Shown here: positions 12,574-18,939 of the stretch, piece by piece
Position numbering within the stretch: position 1 is the stretch's first letter
Layout of the letters: every line of letters starts with the position of its first letter
Assembly (NCBI GenBank): GCA_005772955.1
Contig: SXID01000129.1
Span: 1 to 33,716 of the forward strand
Direction: 5' to 3'
DNA: 33,716 nt
Source of the DNA: Planctomycetia bacterium
Lineage (GTDB): Bacteria > Planctomycetota > Planctomycetia > Gemmatales > Gemmataceae
Program-made: the position numbers and the translations under genes
Notes under the pieces: generated by a model
Seen by the model: the letters and a program-made list of their open reading frames with translations, nothing else
What the model was told of the DNA's origin: nothing
Database searches by the model: none

Positions 12574-13908
12574 ATGTCCACGCTCATCACTCCGCGAACC
12601 CTCTCAGGATTCCGCGACTACTTGCCGTCGGTCATGCTCGCGCGCGAAGAGGTGCTTCGCCGTGCCCGCGAGGTGTATCGTTCCTACGGCTTCACCCCCA
12701 TCGACACGCCGGCGTGCGAGAGCCTCGATGTGTTGCTCGGCAAGGGCGGCGACGAGTCCGACAAACTCGTGTATCGCGTGCTGAGCGCGAAGGGCGATAA
12801 GGCCGAGATGGGTCTGCGGTTCGACCTCACGGTTCCGTTCGCACGATTCTCGGCGCAGTACATCAACGAACTCGGTACGCCGTTCAAGCGGTACGCAATG
12901 GGTCCGGTGTGGCGCGGCGAGCGTCCCGGCCAGGGGCGTTATCGCGAGTTCTGGCAGTGTGACTTCGACACCATCGGCACCACATCCAACGCCGCCGACA
13001 TCGAGGTGGCGCTCGTCATCAACGACCTGTTCACCGCGATCGGCTTCGACGGGTTCGAGATCCGCATCAACAACCGCATGGTGTTGAACGGACTGCTCGA
13101 ATCGCTTGGCATCGCGGATAAGACGGCCTCGGTGCTGCGGTCGCTTGACAAGCTGCCGAAGATCGGTCGCGAGAAGGTGATTGAGGAGATGGTGAAGGAA
13201 TCGGAGATCACCGCCGAGCAAGCCGGGCGCGTTCTCCTGATGACCGACATCACCGGCTCGAACGACCAACTCCTGAACGACCTCGAATCCTGGTTCGCCG
13301 GCGCGAATGAAACCGCCGCGATGGGCATTCGCAACTTGCGCGAACTGCTCGCGGTGGCGAAGGCCGCGGGCGTTCCCGACGGGCGTATCAGGATCGACCT
13401 GAGCATCGCGCGCGGGCTGGACTACTACACCGGCACCATCTACGAAACCTTCCTCACCGCTCTGCCCGGCATCGGCAGTGTGTGCAGCGGTGGCCGGTAC
13501 GACAACCTCGCGAGCAAGTACACGAAGCAGGTTCTTCCCGGTGTCGGCGCTTCGCTCGGCGTGGATCGGCTCATCGCCGCGATGGAGGAACTGAAACACC
13601 CGCTGCTCACGGGACAATCCACACCGGCGCAAGTGTTGGTCGTGAACTTCGACGCGACCCGCCTCGGCGACTACCAGCGCATTGCGCGCGCGATGCGCGC
13701 CGACGGCGTGAACGTGGAGGTGTACCCCGACGCGAAAAAGATCGGGGTGCAGCTCGCTTACGCCGAGAAGCGAGGGTTCAAGCTCGCGGTGATCGCCGGT
13801 CCGGCCGAGTTCGCGCAAGGCGTCTGGAAGGTGAAGAATCTGGCGAAGCGTGAAGAAGAAACCATCTCTGAGACGCAATTGGTCGAGCGGATCAAGACGT
13901 TCCGTTAG
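12574..13908 (+). CDS. hisS: Histidyl-tRNA synthetase
   Basis: HisRS charges tRNA-His. The 444-residue protein is a class II synthetase of normal length. It starts MSTLITPRTLSGFRDYLPSV, and motif 2 (YAMGPVWRGERPGQGRYREF) is near residue 105. The two histidine-specific motifs follow: GLDYYTGTIYE near residue 285 and CSGGRYDNL near 305. A C-terminal anticodon-binding domain begins near residue 345 (AQVLVVNF). The frame stays open back to 12328, but the extra 82 residues show no family similarity, so ATG 12574 is chosen. The 242-bp gap before it holds no gene I can support and no T-box-like leader. Confidence 0.96.
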   Translation: MSTLITPRTLSGFRDYLPSVMLAREEVLRRAREVYRSYGFTPIDTPACESLDVLLGKGGDESDKLVYRVLSAKGDKAEMGLRFDLTVPFARFSAQYINELGTPFKRYAMGPVWRGERPGQGRYREFWQCDFDTIGTTSNAADIEVALVINDLFTAIGFDGFEIRINNRMVLNGLLESLGIADKTASVLRSLDKLPKIGREKVIEEMVKESEITAEQAGRVLLMTDITGSNDQLLNDLESWFAGANETAAMGIRNLRELLAVAKAAGVPDGRIRIDLSIARGLDYYTGTIYETFLTALPGIGSVCSGGRYDNLASKYTKQVLPGVGASLGVDRLIAAMEELKHPLLTGQSTPAQVLVVNFDATRLGDYQRIARAMRADGVNVEVYPDAKKIGVQLAYAEKRGFKLAVIAGPAEFAQGVWKVKNLAKREEETISETQLVERIKTFR

Positions 13909-14192
13909 CCGCGAGTCAACGGCGTGCGTGCGGAGGAGAGGTGCGAGTTGGCTGTGTTCACCCCGACGAACACCGGCGGGAATGACGATGATGATCCCGT
14001 CCGAACAGGAGCTGGACGGGTGTGGCGAAGAAATCAGAGCGAGGGCAACGAGAGGGATCAACCGGCGACACTGACGGCCGCTTGCGTCGCGACAATTTCA
14101 CCCGAATGCCGTTGCCGCGCCGGCAGCCCCACCGTATCCTTCTCCCAACGCACTGCGTTCGCGCAGCCGTATTGACAACTTAAGTTGGTGAG

Positions 14193-14359
14193 TATCTTAT
14201 CCAGAGTGGCTGAGGGGCCAGGCCCGACGACGCCACAGCAACCGGTCTGCCGTTACGAGGTCACAACTCGTAACCCAGATGCAGGTGCTAACTCCTGCCC
14301 GGCAAACGCTGTCTTCCTCCCAAAACAAGGGGAAGCGGTATGGCCGGGGAAGATAAGAT
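14193..14359 (+). promoter_or_regulatory. SAM-I (S-box) riboswitch
   Basis: This leader matches the SAM-I consensus in order. P1 pairs ATCTTATC (14194-14201) with GATAAGAT (14352-14359). P2 pairs GTGGC (14206-14210) with GCCAC (14232-14236), around the kink-turn-like GAGGGGCCAGGCCC and CGACGACGCC. AGCAACC closes the junction at 14238. P3 contains GTTACGAG-loop-CTCGTAAC (14252-14274). The J3/4 core GGTGCTAACTCC (14284-14295) is nearly invariant in the class. P4 is CTTCCTCC-loop-GGGGAAG (about 14313-14335). SAM binding usually turns such RNAs off. It lies 198 bases before the thrC-like start, on the same strand, and nothing else intervenes, so it should control the sulfur-carrier cluster behind it. 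Confidence 0.92.
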
Positions 14360-14401
14360 CTCGCGCGGGGCCGCCCAAACCGGTCCGCCGTAGTCTTATC
14401 T
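14351..14401 (+). promoter_or_regulatory. Candidate riboswitch expression platform (alternative pairing)
   Basis: AGATAAGA at 14351-14358, the 3' strand of P1, is exactly complementary to TCTTATCT at 14394-14401. It can therefore pair either with the P1 5' strand (8 bp, SAM-bound) or with the downstream copy (8 bp, SAM-free). The two states exclude each other, as expected for a switch. What the freed or trapped downstream sequence does is unclear, since no terminator with a T-run was seen before 14456. Confidence 0.55.
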
Positions 14402-14455
14402 CACCACAACCGCCCTTCCCGGCGGCACCTCTGGTTAAGCACTCCCCGACAAGTG

Positions 14456-14540
14456 AGTTGCGAGTCTCGTGTTCCGAGTTGAAGACGAGCAACTCGGCAC
14501 TAGCTTTTGGCTCGCAACTCGGAACACGAGACTCGCAACT
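14456..14540. repeat. Perfect 26-bp inverted repeat in the thrC leader
   Basis: The left arm at 14456-14481 begins AGTTGCGAGTCTCGTG and ends TTCCGAGTTG. The right arm at 14515-14540 is its exact reverse complement. The 33-base loop holds a third copy of CAACTCGG (14489-14496), so CCGAGTTG (14474-14481) has two possible partners. The structure ends 16 bases before the GTG start. It may serve as the riboswitch terminator or simply be another member of the intergenic palindrome set. Confidence 0.85.
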
Positions 14541-14556
14541 TTCCTCGGGGTGTGCC

Positions 14557-15822
14557 GTGCCGAGTAACGACTTTGTCCTCGGGCTGAAGTGCCGCGTGTG
14601 CGGCAAACTCTACCCGAAGGCCGCGACCTTCTTCTGCCCAGACGATTCCGGACCGCTCGAAGTCGCCTACGACTACGACAAGATCAAACCGAACGTCAGC
14701 CGGGCCAAGTTCGCAGCGCGCCCGAAAAACATGTGGCGCTACAAAGAACTCTTGCCCCTTGATGGCGAACCCACCGTCGGACCGCAGGTCGGCGGCACAC
14801 CACTCATTCGCGCGGACCGACTCGCGGACGCGCTCGGCGTCGAGCGACTCTGGATCAAGAACGACGCGGTCAATTTCCCGACGCTCTCGTTCAAGGACCG
14901 CGTTGTGTCCGTCGCGCTCTCGAAGGCGCGCGAACTCGGCATGCGAATGGTCGGGTGCGCCAGCACCGGGAACCTCGCGAATAGCGTCGCGGCGCTGGCC
15001 GCGTCCGCGGGTCTGGAGACAGTCATTCTCGTTCCTGCGGACCTGGAACGAGTCAAGATTTACGGCACCGCGATCTACGGCGCAAAGGTCGTGAAGGTCG
15101 CCGGCACCTACGATCAAGTGAACCGACTCTGCACTCAGATCGTGATGAAGTACGGTTGGGGCTTCGTGAACGTGAACCTCCGGCCGTTCTACGCGGAAGG
15201 CTCGAAGACCGTCGGCTTCGAGATCGCGGAAGACCTCGGCTGGCGGTTTCCACAGCACGTCGTCTGCCCGATGGCCGGCGGCGCGCTCATCGGCAAGATC
15301 CACAAGGGCTTTAACGAACTGAGCCGCTTGGGGTTGGTTGATCAACCGGTGACGACGAAGATGTACGGTGCGCAGGCGACCGGGTGCAACCCGATCAGCG
15401 ATTGCGTGAAGTCGAACCGCGACCGGCACAAGCCAATCAAGACGCCAAACACGATCTGCAAGTCGCTCGCAATCGGCGACCCAGCCGACGGGTACTTCGC
15501 CGCAAAGCTCATCAAGGACAGCGGCGGTTGGGCCGAAGATGTGAGCGATCCCGAAATCGTGGACGCAATGATGCTCCTCGCGAAGACCGAAGGCGTGTTC
15601 GCGGAGACGGCCGGCGGCGCCACGCTCGCGGTCGCGAAGAGATTGATCGAGTCGGGCCGCATCCCACGGAACGAAGAGATCGTGATCTGCATCACCGGCA
15701 ACGGGCTGAAGACACAGGACGCGGTGTTCGACGCGATTGACGAACCGACGACCATCAAGCCGGCGCTGGCCGACTTCGAGGCGCTCGCGGGCCTGGTCGG
15801 CGCGGAACCGGCGATGGTGTGA
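14557..15822 (+). CDS. thrC: Threonine synthase-family PLP enzyme under SAM riboswitch
   Basis: Threonine synthases turn O-phosphohomoserine into threonine. This 421-residue protein has the N-terminal zinc-ribbon-like CRVCGKLYP...FFCPDD segment. PLP-binding Lys113 lies in TLSFKDR, GCASTGNLANSVAALAA is the phosphate/substrate loop, and MAGGALIGKIHKG is also present. The C-terminal VICITGNGLKT binds the cofactor nitrogen region. GTG 14557 is chosen because GGGG lies six bases upstream. The frame runs back through the riboswitch but that part is RNA, not protein. Control by SAM and the sulfur-carrier genes behind it suggest it may use a sulfur donor (homocysteine formation) instead of, or as well as, water. 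That is inference, and plain threonine synthesis remains the default. Confidence 0.9.
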   Translation: MPSNDFVLGLKCRVCGKLYPKAATFFCPDDSGPLEVAYDYDKIKPNVSRAKFAARPKNMWRYKELLPLDGEPTVGPQVGGTPLIRADRLADALGVERLWIKNDAVNFPTLSFKDRVVSVALSKARELGMRMVGCASTGNLANSVAALAASAGLETVILVPADLERVKIYGTAIYGAKVVKVAGTYDQVNRLCTQIVMKYGWGFVNVNLRPFYAEGSKTVGFEIAEDLGWRFPQHVVCPMAGGALIGKIHKGFNELSRLGLVDQPVTTKMYGAQATGCNPISDCVKSNRDRHKPIKTPNTICKSLAIGDPADGYFAAKLIKDSGGWAEDVSDPEIVDAMMLLAKTEGVFAETAGGATLAVAKRLIESGRIPRNEEIVICITGNGLKTQDAVFDAIDEPTTIKPALADFEALAGLVGAEPAMV

Positions 15823-15831
15823 AGAAGCCGA

Positions 15832-15940
15832 ATTAACCACAAAGGCACAAAGGACACAAAGAAAGCCAAAGAGAATTGGTTCAAAGAACTCTGTGTTGTC
15901 TGCTGTCTTCTTTGTGTCCTTTGTGCCTTTGTGGTTAATC
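15832..15940. repeat. Palindromic intergenic element, copy 2 (TTAACCAC family)
   Basis: ATTAACCACAAAGGCACAAA at 15832 opens a 32-bp arm that is exactly complementary to 15908-15939. The spacer is about 45 bases and unlike that of copy 1 (2779-2910). Arms of the two copies are near-identical in sequence. It ends 16 bases before the sulfur-carrier ATG and leaves that gene's own ribosome binding site intact. Confidence 0.9.
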
Positions 15941-15956: not shown

Positions 15957-16229
15957 ATGGCGATCAAAGTTCAAATTCCAACCCCGATGCGCGAGCAGTC
16001 GGGCGGCAAGGCGGAAGTCGAAGTCACCGGCGCGACCGTGAAGGCCACGCTCGAAGACCTGCTGCGCCAGTACCCCGCGATGGGACCGAAGCTGTTCGCG
16101 GATGGCAAACTGCGGCCCTACATCAACGTGTTCCTCAACGACGAGGACATCCGCTACCTCGACGAGATGGACACTGCGGTCACGGACGGCGTCGTACTCG
16201 CGCTGATCCCAGCCGTCGCGGGGGGCTGA
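15957..16229 (+). CDS. CysO-like ubiquitin-fold sulfur carrier protein (MoaD/ThiS family)
   Basis: Carriers of this family bear sulfur as a C-terminal thiocarboxylate after an E1 enzyme adenylates their GlyGly end. The 90-residue protein ends LIPAVAGG with Gly89-Gly90 exposed. Its C-terminal half (YINVFLNDEDIRYLDEMDTA) is close, from memory, to mycobacterial CysO, which has NDEDVRF and the same PAVAGG end. It is less like MoaD of molybdopterin synthase. GGAG five bases before the ATG fixes the start. It follows the thrC-like gene after one palindrome, and the stop is four bases from the next ATG. A role in cysteine or homocysteine formation is therefore more likely than in cofactor synthesis. 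Confidence 0.92.
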   Translation: MAIKVQIPTPMREQSGGKAEVEVTGATVKATLEDLLRQYPAMGPKLFADGKLRPYINVFLNDEDIRYLDEMDTAVTDGVVLALIPAVAGG

Positions 16230-16233
16230 GTTG

Positions 16234-16575
16234 ATGTCCGATGGAGCGCCCGAAGCGAAGCCCGAAGAAACGCCCGATGGCGCCGCGGTGTTCCCGATGA
16301 TCCCAGAGGAACTCGGCGTTCACCCGCTGCTCCTCGCCGCGATCCACGCGTACGTGTTCCTCGAAGGCTCCGAGACCGCGGTACTGAACGCCGCAGTCGC
16401 GGAAGAAGCGATGAACTACGTCGTGTCGTACCTTCAGCGGCTTGACGGGAACGATCTGCGCCGCGCCCGCGAAGACATGGCCACGCTGATCGGGTTCGCA
16501 AAGGCCGAGAAGTGGCCCAAGCAACACATCCGATTCCTGCAAGAGTTCCTCAAGGAAAACGGAATAGGTTCGTAG
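16234..16575 (+). CDS. Unknown 113-aa protein between sulfur carrier and E1 enzyme
   Basis: A 113-residue acidic protein starting MSDGAPEAKPEETPDGAAVF. After a flexible head, residues 25-113 look all-helical, with LGVHPLLLAAIHAYVFLEGS and EEAMNYVVSYLQRLDG as two amphipathic helices. It has no Cys, no JAMM-type H-x-H...D metal site, no signal peptide and no membrane segment. The ATG at 16234 lies four bases after the carrier stop, so the two are translationally close. Position suggests a partner of the carrier or of the PLP enzyme, perhaps an adaptor. I do not recognise the family and give it no function. Confidence 0.85.
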   Translation: MSDGAPEAKPEETPDGAAVFPMIPEELGVHPLLLAAIHAYVFLEGSETAVLNAAVAEEAMNYVVSYLQRLDGNDLRRAREDMATLIGFAKAEKWPKQHIRFLQEFLKENGIGS

Positions 16576-16653: not shown

Positions 16654-17709
16654 ATGATCGACCCCAACCCGCTCGAACGATACTCCCGCCAAATGCGGTT
16701 CCCCGGTCTCGGCAAAGCCGGGCAAGAGAAGTTGCTCGCGAGCCGCGTCACGCTCTGCGGGTGCGGCGCGCTCGGCACTGTGCTCGCGAACGTACTCGTG
16801 CGCGCCGGCGTCGGCTTCGTCCGCGTCATCGACCGCGACTTCGTGGAGCCGTCGAACCTTCAGCGACAAGTTCTCTTCGACGAATCGGACGTGCGCGACA
16901 ACCTTCCCAAAGCCGAAGCCGCCGCGACCAAGTTGCGGCAGATCAACTCATCGGTCACGGTGGAACCGATCGTCGCTGATATCAACCGCACCAACATTGA
17001 AGACTTCTGCGACGGCGCGGACATCATTCTCGACGGCAGCGACAACTTCGAGATTCGTTACCTCATCAACGATGTCGCGATCAAACACAACAAGCCGTGG
17101 GTGTACGGCGGTGCGGTCGGCAGTCAGGGGATGAGCATGACCATCATCCCCGGCGAAACCCCGTGTCTGCGCTGCGTGTTTGAAGCCGCACCCGCGCCGG
17201 GCGAAACCGGCACGTGCGAGACCGCCGGCGTGCTCGCACCCGCCGTGAACATCGTCGCGAGCTATCAGGCCACGGAAGCGATCAAGTTGCTCTCCGGCAA
17301 CAAGGCCACGATCAACCGCGAGCTAATCATCATCGACGTGTGGGAGAACACCAACAAGCGAGTTAAGGTTGCTCCGCTTGCCGGTCGGAAAGGGCAGTGT
17401 CCGTGCTGTGCGAAGCGGAACTTCGAGTGGCTCGACGGCGCGCACGGCACGCAAACGACCACTCTGTGCGGACGAAATGCCGTGCAGGTGAGCCACCGCG
17501 TAAAGGGAAAGCTCGACTTCGCGTACCTTGCGTCGGTTCTGAAGCAATCCGGCGAGGTGAGTTACAACAAGTTCCTGCTGAAGTTCCAACTGACTGAGAA
17601 CGGCGACCCATACGAGTTCACGGTGTTCGAGGACGGCCGCGCGATCATCAAGGGCACGGACGAACCGGACAAGGCCCGCACGCTCTACGCGAAGTACGTC
17701 GGGCACTGA
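16654..17709 (+). CDS. ThiF/MoeB/HesA-type E1-like adenylyltransferase
   Basis: These enzymes adenylate the GlyGly tail of a sulfur carrier with ATP so that sulfur can be loaded. The 351-residue protein has the nucleotide motif GCGALG (36-41) and NLQRQVLFDESDV. Paired zinc cysteines are Cys171/Cys174 (CLRC) and Cys249/Cys252 (CPCC). Cys188 in GTCETAGVLAP is where E1 enzymes keep their active cysteine. It has no rhodanese domain. Instead the last 90 residues (TTLCGRNAVQV ... VFEDGRAIIKGTD) form the small tail domain seen, from memory, in Bacillus-type ThiF/MoeB. The sulfur source is then likely the desulfurase encoded next. Start ATG follows a palindrome. Confidence 0.93.
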   Translation: MIDPNPLERYSRQMRFPGLGKAGQEKLLASRVTLCGCGALGTVLANVLVRAGVGFVRVIDRDFVEPSNLQRQVLFDESDVRDNLPKAEAAATKLRQINSSVTVEPIVADINRTNIEDFCDGADIILDGSDNFEIRYLINDVAIKHNKPWVYGGAVGSQGMSMTIIPGETPCLRCVFEAAPAPGETGTCETAGVLAPAVNIVASYQATEAIKLLSGNKATINRELIIIDVWENTNKRVKVAPLAGRKGQCPCCAKRNFEWLDGAHGTQTTTLCGRNAVQVSHRVKGKLDFAYLASVLKQSGEVSYNKFLLKFQLTENGDPYEFTVFEDGRAIIKGTDEPDKARTLYAKYVGH

Positions 17710-17796: not shown

Positions 17797-18939
17797 ATGA
17801 TCTACCTCGATAACGCCGCGACAAGTTTCCCGAAGCCGGAGGCGGTCTACGTTGCGATGGACCGCTTCGCGAGGCACTCGCTCGCCAACCCCGGGCGTTC
17901 GGGCCACAAGATGGCACTCGAATCCGAGCACGCCCTCTCCGACGCCCGCCACCGGCTCAACCGGTTCTTCAACGGCCGCAACCCGGACCGCTGGGTGTTC
18001 ACGCTCAACTGCACCGACGCGCTCAACATGGCCTTCAAAGGTGTGTTGAACGACGGCGACCACGTTATCACTACCGACCTCGAACACAACAGCGTGTCGC
18101 GCCCGCTGGTCGCACTCGCGGAGGCGAAGCGAATCACGCTCACGCGCGTGCCTTCGGACACCGGCGGCACCATCAGCCCCGAAGCGATTCGCGCCGCGAT
18201 CACGCCGAAGACGCGACTCGTCGCGATGACGCACGCGAGCAACGTCCTCGGCACCGTTCAGCCGGTCGCGGACGTCGGTCGTATCGTGCGCGAACACGAC
18301 CTGCTGTTCCTTGTGGACGCGGCGCAAACCGCGGGAGTGATCCCGCTCGACGTGCAAACCGCGTGCATCGATCTGCTCGCGTTTCCGGGTCACAAGTCGC
18401 TCTTCGGTCCCACCGGTACCGGTGCGCTGTACGTCGGGTCTCGCGTCACGCTGCGCCCGTGGCGCGAGGGCGGCACCGGCGGCGACTCGCTCACGCCCAC
18501 GCAACCCACCGACTTCCCGCACTACTTGGAGGGCGGCACGCCGAACGTGCTCGGCGTCGCGGGGTTGGTTGCGGGGTTGGACTTCGTGGAAGAACGCGGT
18601 CTGGAAGCGATTCGCAAGCACGAAGTGGATCTGTGCGACCGGTTGCGGCACGCGATCGCGGACCTACCCGGCTTCGAGCTGTTCGGTCACGCGGACGCTT
18701 CACGCCGCGTTGGCGCGGTCAGTTTCCGGTGTGAGATGCTCGCCGCACCGGAACTCGCCGGGCTTCTCGACGAGAAGTTCGACATCGCGGTGCGCCCCGG
18801 ACTGCACTGCGCACCATACATCCATAAGGCGCTCGGCACCGCGCCCGACGGACTCGTGCGGGTCAGCCCCGGCCCGTTCACCACAAACGCCGAAATCGAC
18901 CACCTCATCGACGCGCTGAAGCAGATAACTGGAATGTGA
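17797..18939 (+). CDS. Cysteine desulfurase family protein (class V aminotransferase)
   Basis: Desulfurases use PLP to take sulfur from cysteine as an enzyme persulfide. The 380-residue protein begins MIYLDNAATSFPKPEAVYVA, the NifS/SufS start. PLP Lys200 is in FPGHKSLFGPTGTGALYVG. The presumed persulfide cysteine is Cys338 in RPGLHCAPYIHKALG, a short loop of the SufS-like group. DAAQTAGVIPLDV is the cofactor Asp/Gln motif. I chose ATG 17797 because the family start falls there and a purine-rich AAGGTGAAAGAAG precedes it; the upstream frame is palindrome. As the last gene of the cluster it can supply sulfur to the E1/carrier pair. A role in Fe-S assembly or tRNA thiolation is also possible. 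Confidence 0.92.
   Translation: MIYLDNAATSFPKPEAVYVAMDRFARHSLANPGRSGHKMALESEHALSDARHRLNRFFNGRNPDRWVFTLNCTDALNMAFKGVLNDGDHVITTDLEHNSVSRPLVALAEAKRITLTRVPSDTGGTISPEAIRAAITPKTRLVAMTHASNVLGTVQPVADVGRIVREHDLLFLVDAAQTAGVIPLDVQTACIDLLAFPGHKSLFGPTGTGALYVGSRVTLRPWREGGTGGDSLTPTQPTDFPHYLEGGTPNVLGVAGLVAGLDFVEERGLEAIRKHEVDLCDRLRHAIADLPGFELFGHADASRRVGAVSFRCEMLAAPELAGLLDEKFDIAVRPGLHCAPYIHKALGTAPDGLVRVSPGPFTTNAEIDHLIDALKQITGM

Follow-up and report, generated by a model that had tools for sequence, protein, structure and literature searches.

A planctomycete operon, probably of the MetM–MetO kind, with a threonine synthase-like enzyme, under predicted SAM-I riboswitch control

In Streptomyces albulus, O-phosphohomoserine is converted by the homocysteine synthase MetM, a homologue of a protein annotated as threonine synthase (ThrC), with metO as the gene for the sulfur carrier; a SAM riboswitch reportedly lies upstream and homologues occur in cyanobacteria (Hasebe et al. 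2024, Appl Environ Microbiol 90:e01247-24, as cited in PMC12172450). In Microcystis, the metO counterpart adjoins thrC, whose product shares 51.6% identity with Streptomyces MetM and acts mainly as a threonine synthase and threonine deaminase; this ThrC, encoded beside a metO-like gene, does not appear fully MetM-like (PMC12172450). The Microcystis case serves as a warning that homologues need not share one role, and this protein may lie outside the enzyme clade described below.

A second route from a protein thiocarboxylate to methionine, that of Wolinella, was reportedly described by Krishnamoorthy and Begley in 2011 (cited in PMC5764234) and is said to use a MetY-type sulfhydrylase acting on O-acetylhomoserine, with the involvement of a metalloprotease. 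The Wolinella-type route is defined by a PF01053 sulfhydrylase and a JAB protease together with a carrier and an E1 enzyme.

The window analysed here—the whole stretch of 33,716 nucleotides, from a member of the Gemmataceae—is best described as holding a planctomycete operon of the MetM–MetO kind under SAM-I control. Its relevant features are as follows.

14194–14359, + strand: SAM-I (S-box) riboswitch aptamer, RF00162 (cmscan, full-length match)
14351–14358, + strand: P1 3′ strand AGATAAGA, common to the P1 helix and the alternative stem (Rfam alignment, alternative fold)
14394–14401, + strand: TCTTATCT, which can pair with the P1 3′ strand in place of the P1 5′ strand (exact complement)
14457–14539, + strand: inverted repeat with exact 25-nt arms, in the leader after the alternative stem and before the start codon
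14557–15822, + strand: MetM-type enzyme, a threonine synthase paralogue and fold-type II PLP enzyme (TIGR00260, PF00291, active-site signature, trees)
15957–16229, + strand: MetO-type sulfur carrier, ThiS/MoaD/SAMP1-like, C terminus AGG (PF02597, 49.2 bits; NF041918, 62.3 bits, cut-off 60)
16231–16575, + strand: conserved 114-aa helical protein without family assignment (model, relatives)
16654–17709, + strand: MoeB/ThiF (E1-like) adenylyltransferase, predicted carrier activator (PF00899, 254.8 bits)
17797–18939, + strand: cysteine desulfurase family protein, predicted sulfur source (TIGR01977, 415.1 bits, cut-off 377; PF00266, 302.1 bits)

It is highly probable that the SAM-I riboswitch shuts off, at high SAM, a homocysteine-synthesis operon of the MetM–MetO kind, in which the ThrC-like enzyme is an O-phosphohomoserine-dependent homocysteine synthase fed by the carrier; SAM binding, the off-direction, the substrate, the product, and the sulfur donor are what we infer. 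At low SAM, the P1 3′ strand would pair with TCTTATCT at 14394–14401 and the operon would be on; with SAM bound, P1 would form, the partner would be freed, and the operon would be off. The MetM-type enzyme would swap the phosphate of O-phosphohomoserine for sulfur, which would ride on the MetO-type carrier as a C-terminal thiocarboxylate, with the carrier activated by the operon's E1-like enzyme and charged by the cysteine desulfurase or another sulfide source.

The likeness to the Streptomyces MetM–MetO route lies in a ThrC-type enzyme, an adjoining gene for a GG-ended carrier, and an upstream SAM riboswitch; the planctomycete operon differs in that it also encodes an E1-like enzyme, a cysteine desulfurase, and the helical protein. 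A protein search also found the actinomycete Nonomuraea gerenzanensis, in which a SAM-I match (68.7 bits) is followed by the enzyme and then by a carrier of 91 aa ending in AGG. This enzyme, taken as a proxy for that of S. albulus, is 48% identical to the window's, has an equal residue at 20 of 24 compared positions, and, in a quick, long-branched tree, groups with the window's clade (SH-aLRT 100).

With the Wolinella route, the operon shares a ThiS-like carrier, an E1-like activator, and homocysteine as the predicted product, but its enzyme is of the ThrC type and no JAB gene was found among the operon genes. The best Pfam matches of the latter are PALP, ThiS, ThiF, and Aminotran_5, with one gene unmatched, which places the operon outside the Wolinella type; the desulfurase additionally shows a marginal cross-match to PF01053 (28.3 bits, cut-off 27). 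The 114-aa protein at 16231–16575 gave no NCBIfam or Pfam match; its predicted structure contains four helices (mean pLDDT 90.4), and a comparison with solved structures returned nothing with E < 0.001, the best E being 1.2.

The initial annotation had read the leader as a SAM-I riboswitch, and the Rfam covariance-model search (cmscan) bears this out: RF00162 matches 14194–14359 on the + strand over all 108 model positions (1–108), scoring 73.3 bits (gathering score 44.4; E 1.6e-15), and is the sole gathering-score match to any family in the window. Judged by its sequence, the element is a genuine SAM-I riboswitch and presumably binds SAM. The extent first given to it, 14193–14401, stands as regards the aptamer and the partner but begins one base outside the model match, which starts at 14194. 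A second SAM-I match in the genome (C234:17233–17339, 29.5 bits, below the gathering score) was taken as chance because the 8.2 kb around its downstream side held no operon-gene matches.

For the wider comparison, one genome per species was scanned, and the best 80 of 199 related stretches were taken; by their record titles as given, these come from Gemmataceae, other planctomycetes, Verrucomicrobia, Brocadiales members, and a few others. A covariance model for the leaders, built from 24 aptamers (18 out of these best 80 of 199 loci), found an aptamer ahead of the enzyme in 78 of these 80 loci; L163 begins within the gene, and L174 gave no match. Of the matched loci, L117 is truncated at a contig end, L127 shows two weak matches, and L136 has its aptamer as far as 930 nt upstream; these three, along with L163 and L174, were left out of the leader counts. 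Rfam's own SAM-I model matched in 24 of the 25 loci submitted from the best 80.

A mutually exclusive pairing partner for the P1 3′ strand had also been proposed, and it is present, by sequence and predicted folding, as the exact TCTTATCT. Folded by itself, the 51-nt stretch 14351–14401 is predicted to close with an outer stem of 9 pairs (−23.7 kcal/mol, z −3.67), and none of 200 shuffles was as good. The partner recurs in relatives: across 76 leaders—the window and 75 relatives, giving 75 distinct sequences with one identical pair—each P1 3′ strand was compared with the 90 nt that follow its own aptamer; its exact complement occurs there in 24 leaders, against 0.09 expected from dinucleotide shuffles, and a complement with at most one mismatch over the same distance in 40, against 2.76 expected, these being counts over mutually related leaders and not over independent cases. 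Dropping the identical copy leaves both counts at 24 and 40, of 75. Folding predictions for 22 Gemmata-type leaders, picked because they carry the element, give the alternative-stem ensemble a higher stability than the P1 ensemble in all 22. Co-variation of the P1 3′ strand and its partner across the 76 leaders follows no clear pattern, with P1 3′ strands of the TGAGA type accompanied by TCTCA in 2 of 14 and by TCTTA in 1 of 14, and those of the TAAGA type by TCTTA in 30 of 56 and by TCTCA in 21 of 56.

A full-length aptamer and an alternative pairing of the P1 3′ strand are what the window leader has in common with SAM-I (S-box) riboswitches of RF00162. It differs in having no terminator-like site within 13900–14620 (consensus scan), unlike 25 of the 76 leaders, in which a terminator-like hairpin with a U-run was counted without a shuffle control; 12 of these 25 are, by record title, members of Verrucomicrobia, Limisphaerales, Pedosphaera, or Brocadiales. 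In L180, L185, and L190, read by eye, TCTTATC falls within the terminator's 5′ half, so that the terminator-like site and the TCTTATC-type element overlap; this placement is the classical SAM-I arrangement.

Neither of two candidate expression platforms drew clear support. A terminator was sought in the window leader by the consensus scan and none was found. A translational switch through masking of the Shine–Dalgarno sequence found no significant backing in constrained folding of 22 leaders chosen for the alternative partner, a weak test in which 8 of the 22 start positions lay off the start codon: the mean difference in accessibility between the P1 and alternative states was 0.41 kcal/mol (p = 0.22). 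Of these 22 leaders, the 8 with an offset start included, 11 came out higher and 5 lower by more than 0.5 kcal/mol.

A 95-nt stretch with the inverted repeat at 14457–14539 folds at −61.1 kcal/mol. The 22-nt core of this repeat has no exact copy among the other fetched loci, save those of the same place, and the repeat is perhaps a recent insertion into the leader. Inverted repeats of another kind, with arms like AACCACAAAGGCACAAAGGACACAAAG, occur in two copies at 2791–2898 and 15835–15936, the second of which separates the enzyme gene from the carrier gene within the operon.

The terminator-free leader, the Shine–Dalgarno result, and the 25-nt-arm repeat with its uncopied core would all fit a riboswitch that has become a functionless relic in this genome, with an inverted repeat inserted by the start codon. 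Against such a relic stand the full aptamer, scoring well above the gathering threshold, and the exact alternative partner, present as it is in 24 of the 76 leaders; a U-run, moreover, is unnecessary for Rho-dependent or translational control. A relic has very little likelihood.

Linkage to the carrier is nearly as regular as linkage to the riboswitch. A carrier gene lies downstream on the same strand in 76 of the best 80 of 199 loci, with no carrier match near the enzyme in L142, L162, L176, and L179. Of 75 related carriers, counted without the partial one of L135, 71 end in GG, and the other 4 have a tail beyond it. These four, the carriers of L180, L187, L190, and L174, have extra residues beyond the conserved AGG; by analogy with ubiquitin precursors, such tails would need removal before activation. 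The remaining genes were found in fewer of the best 80 loci, many of which are cut short: the E1 enzyme (>55% identity) in 52, the desulfurase (>55%) in 33, and the helical protein in 51. In one relative's locus, an MISL RNA match of 577 bits was seen (L173:513–1264).

Within the window's family, a SAM-I match occurs in 87 of 95 genomes, and in 65 of 66 among the better assemblies. Thirty family SAM-I loci were inspected for the gene that follows, of which 27 have the enzyme downstream, 2 stand at a contig end, and 1 (L006) is without such a gene. The locus L078 (G039:C121:18124–18235) has a strong SAM-I match of 85.7 bits and no operon-gene match within the 8.1 kb fetched; on the other strand, genes that read as trpB and trpA follow downstream. 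Across the phylum, 49 of 294 genomes drawn have an orthologue of the enzyme at no less than 51% identity, the other 18 of the 67 matches, at 34–42% identity, not being taken as orthologues. Among the 29 phylum orthologue loci listed besides the window's, Rfam's SAM-I model reaches its gathering score in 21 and does not in 8, including all of L249–L254.

The enzyme itself, with its frame start placed at GTG 14557, shares with threonine synthases their fold family, the SFKDR lysine motif, and a TIGR00260 match of 280.9 bits (cut-off 167.1). It also matches PF00291 with 234.3 bits and NF006050 with 288.3 bits, the latter under the cut-off of 303, and its nearest solved relatives are threonine synthases. 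It differs from them in the active site. Aligned to four solved ThrC and in Thermus numbering, all 110 sequences of the clade (108 distinct strings) carry the substitutions T88L, S155N, N157R, R160Y, and Q164S, along with changed residues at 18 further positions (D52, V64, V65, N90, E113, Y134, N138, M186, A187, G189, L191, K194, S240, D248, G249, T288, G290, and T323). The loop 186–194 is likewise altered, with N188 replaced by G in 97 sequences and by S in 13, and N191 by L in 110. The original T88, S155, N157, R160, Q164, N188, and N191 are kept in all four solved ThrC and in 11 of 11 paralogues of the C192 type, named after a second ThrC-type gene of the window's genome.

The changed positions are ones that we take to contact substrate and phosphate in Thermus ThrC. 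Replacement of the presumed phosphate-binding residues of ThrC makes the substrate of the MetM-type enzyme less than certain. As a pattern in aligned residues, the signature appears to distinguish threonine synthases from MetM-type enzymes. The clade forms one side of a branch with SH-aLRT values of 99 and 100 in two quick trees, in which long branches were flagged and the place of the clade among ThrC relatives is accordingly uncertain. The genome has two more ThrC-type genes, one on C192, beside a gene reading as dapB by translation, and one on C178, at a contig end; in the 61 family genomes searched, ThrC-model matches number 2 to 9 per genome, some of them weak or fragmentary.

A true threonine synthase as the riboswitch target was the first idea and is what the initial annotation had proposed; on such a reading, repression by SAM would keep the threonine and methionine branches in balance where they part at O-phosphohomoserine. 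The TIGR00260 score and the closest solved relatives agree with it, and a Microcystis MetM homologue formed threonine in vitro (PMC12172450). The idea was rejected on the active-site signature and the linkage to a sulfur carrier: all 110 clade members lack active-site residues of ThrC that are retained in the genome's own C192-type paralogue, and the carrier gene accompanies the enzyme in the 76 of 80 loci given above. Plants activate their threonine synthase with SAM, and control that is off with SAM would run in the wrong direction for the branch point. We regard a working threonine synthase as decidedly improbable. Since the ThrC active-site residues are absent, a sulfur carrier gene adjoins, and the arrangement is of the MetM type, the riboswitch most likely controls methionine biosynthesis. 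The target, thought at first to lie outside the usual SAM-I genes, would thus be a normal one as far as sequence can tell; the companion surmise, that so odd a target would reveal the true role of the enzyme, proved apt in view of the changed active site, the carrier gene, and the MetM-type arrangement.

A carrier-fed enzyme might also make cysteine. In the CysM–CysO system of mycobacteria, O-phosphoserine and a thiocarboxylated carrier yield cysteine, and SAM-I switches can regulate sulfur assimilation genes, which leaves room for a cysteine synthase that acts here in the same manner. Operons of a ThiS/MoaD-like carrier, an E1-like enzyme, a JAB peptidase, and a cysteine synthase are on record (PMC1779556). 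The enzyme, however, falls on the ThrC side and scores 39.3 bits with the CysM model NF008735, far under the cut-off of 413, and linkage to SAM-I indicates methionine. Furthermore, a cystathionine beta-synthase (TIGR01137, 514.1 bits, cut-off 510.25) is encoded near the sole full-length PF01053 enzyme of the genome, a pair that suits the conversion of homocysteine to cysteine. A cysteine synthase is thus extremely unlikely, and an O-phosphohomoserine-dependent homocysteine synthase is the preferred reading.

That PF01053 enzyme, which lies on a contig other than the operon's, could run in either direction, because its best model is named cystathionine gamma-synthase (554.8 bits, cut-off 513). 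A second route to homocysteine, from O-phosphohomoserine via a cystathionine gamma-synthase-like enzyme, is possible on this sequence evidence. If the desulfurase takes cysteine as its sulfur source and homocysteine in turn supplies that cysteine, sulfur would only cycle; it would then have to enter elsewhere as well, for instance as sulfide that reaches carrier or enzyme directly, or by way of a distinct cysteine synthase.

Other known routes are sparsely represented. This genome gave no match to MetA or to an HcyBio/DUF39-type protein, and to MetX only a partial local match of 21.6 bits. Across the family, MetX is near-complete (>220 bits) in 5 of 95 genomes and partial in 3 more at 100–114 bits, the rest reaching 36 bits at most, and MetA is present in 1 of 95; with MetX or MetA in some genomes, the MetM-type route is not always the sole route in the family. 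MetX and the orthologue rarely share a genome in the phylum sample: MetX turned up in 85 of the 245 genomes that lack the orthologue and in 2 of the 49 that have it (Fisher p = 3.8e-6, kinship ignored). For the supply of O-phosphohomoserine, no ThrB passes its cut-off in this genome; the proposed homoserine kinase TIGR02535 scores 490 bits (cut-off 446.3) and passes in 78 of 95 family genomes.

A link between carrier and homocysteine of a different make is found in L174, the locus without a SAM-I match to either the Rfam or the trained covariance model. Here, a ThiS-like carrier is fused to a NIL domain (L174:1809–2321; 53.7 bits, cut-off 24), and the cluster beside the fusion contains an E1-rhodanese, a rhodanese, a JAB peptidase, a second PLP enzyme, and Thi4. 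In Desulfovibrio and methanogens, a NIL/ferredoxin protein is involved in making homocysteine (PMC5764234). By analogy, the ThiS–NIL fusion may be an independent link of the carrier to homocysteine. New here are the distribution, an operon that encodes a sulfur relay of its own, and the ThiS–NIL fusion; a literature search of titles and abstract openings that covered few subscription papers found no description of the operon in planctomycetes or Verrucomicrobia, and Hasebe et al. 2024 may go further on distribution.

Taken further, the SAM-controlled operon of the Gemmataceae could be a self-contained homocysteine machine and the main methionine route for most members, with desulfurase, E1, carrier, and MetM-type enzyme forming one dedicated relay, the helical protein a new part of it, and a related lineage fusing the carrier to a NIL domain as in the DUF39 homocysteine route; we put this forward tentatively, as somewhat short of probable. 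The genes modelled as threonine synthase in the best 80 of 199 loci are probably homocysteine synthases. Correcting them would fill a gap in methionine biosynthesis in genomes without a MetX or MetA match, and the active-site signature offers a means of separating threonine synthase from homocysteine synthase. The findings also suggest that the Streptomyces route, together with its riboswitch control, spans several phyla.
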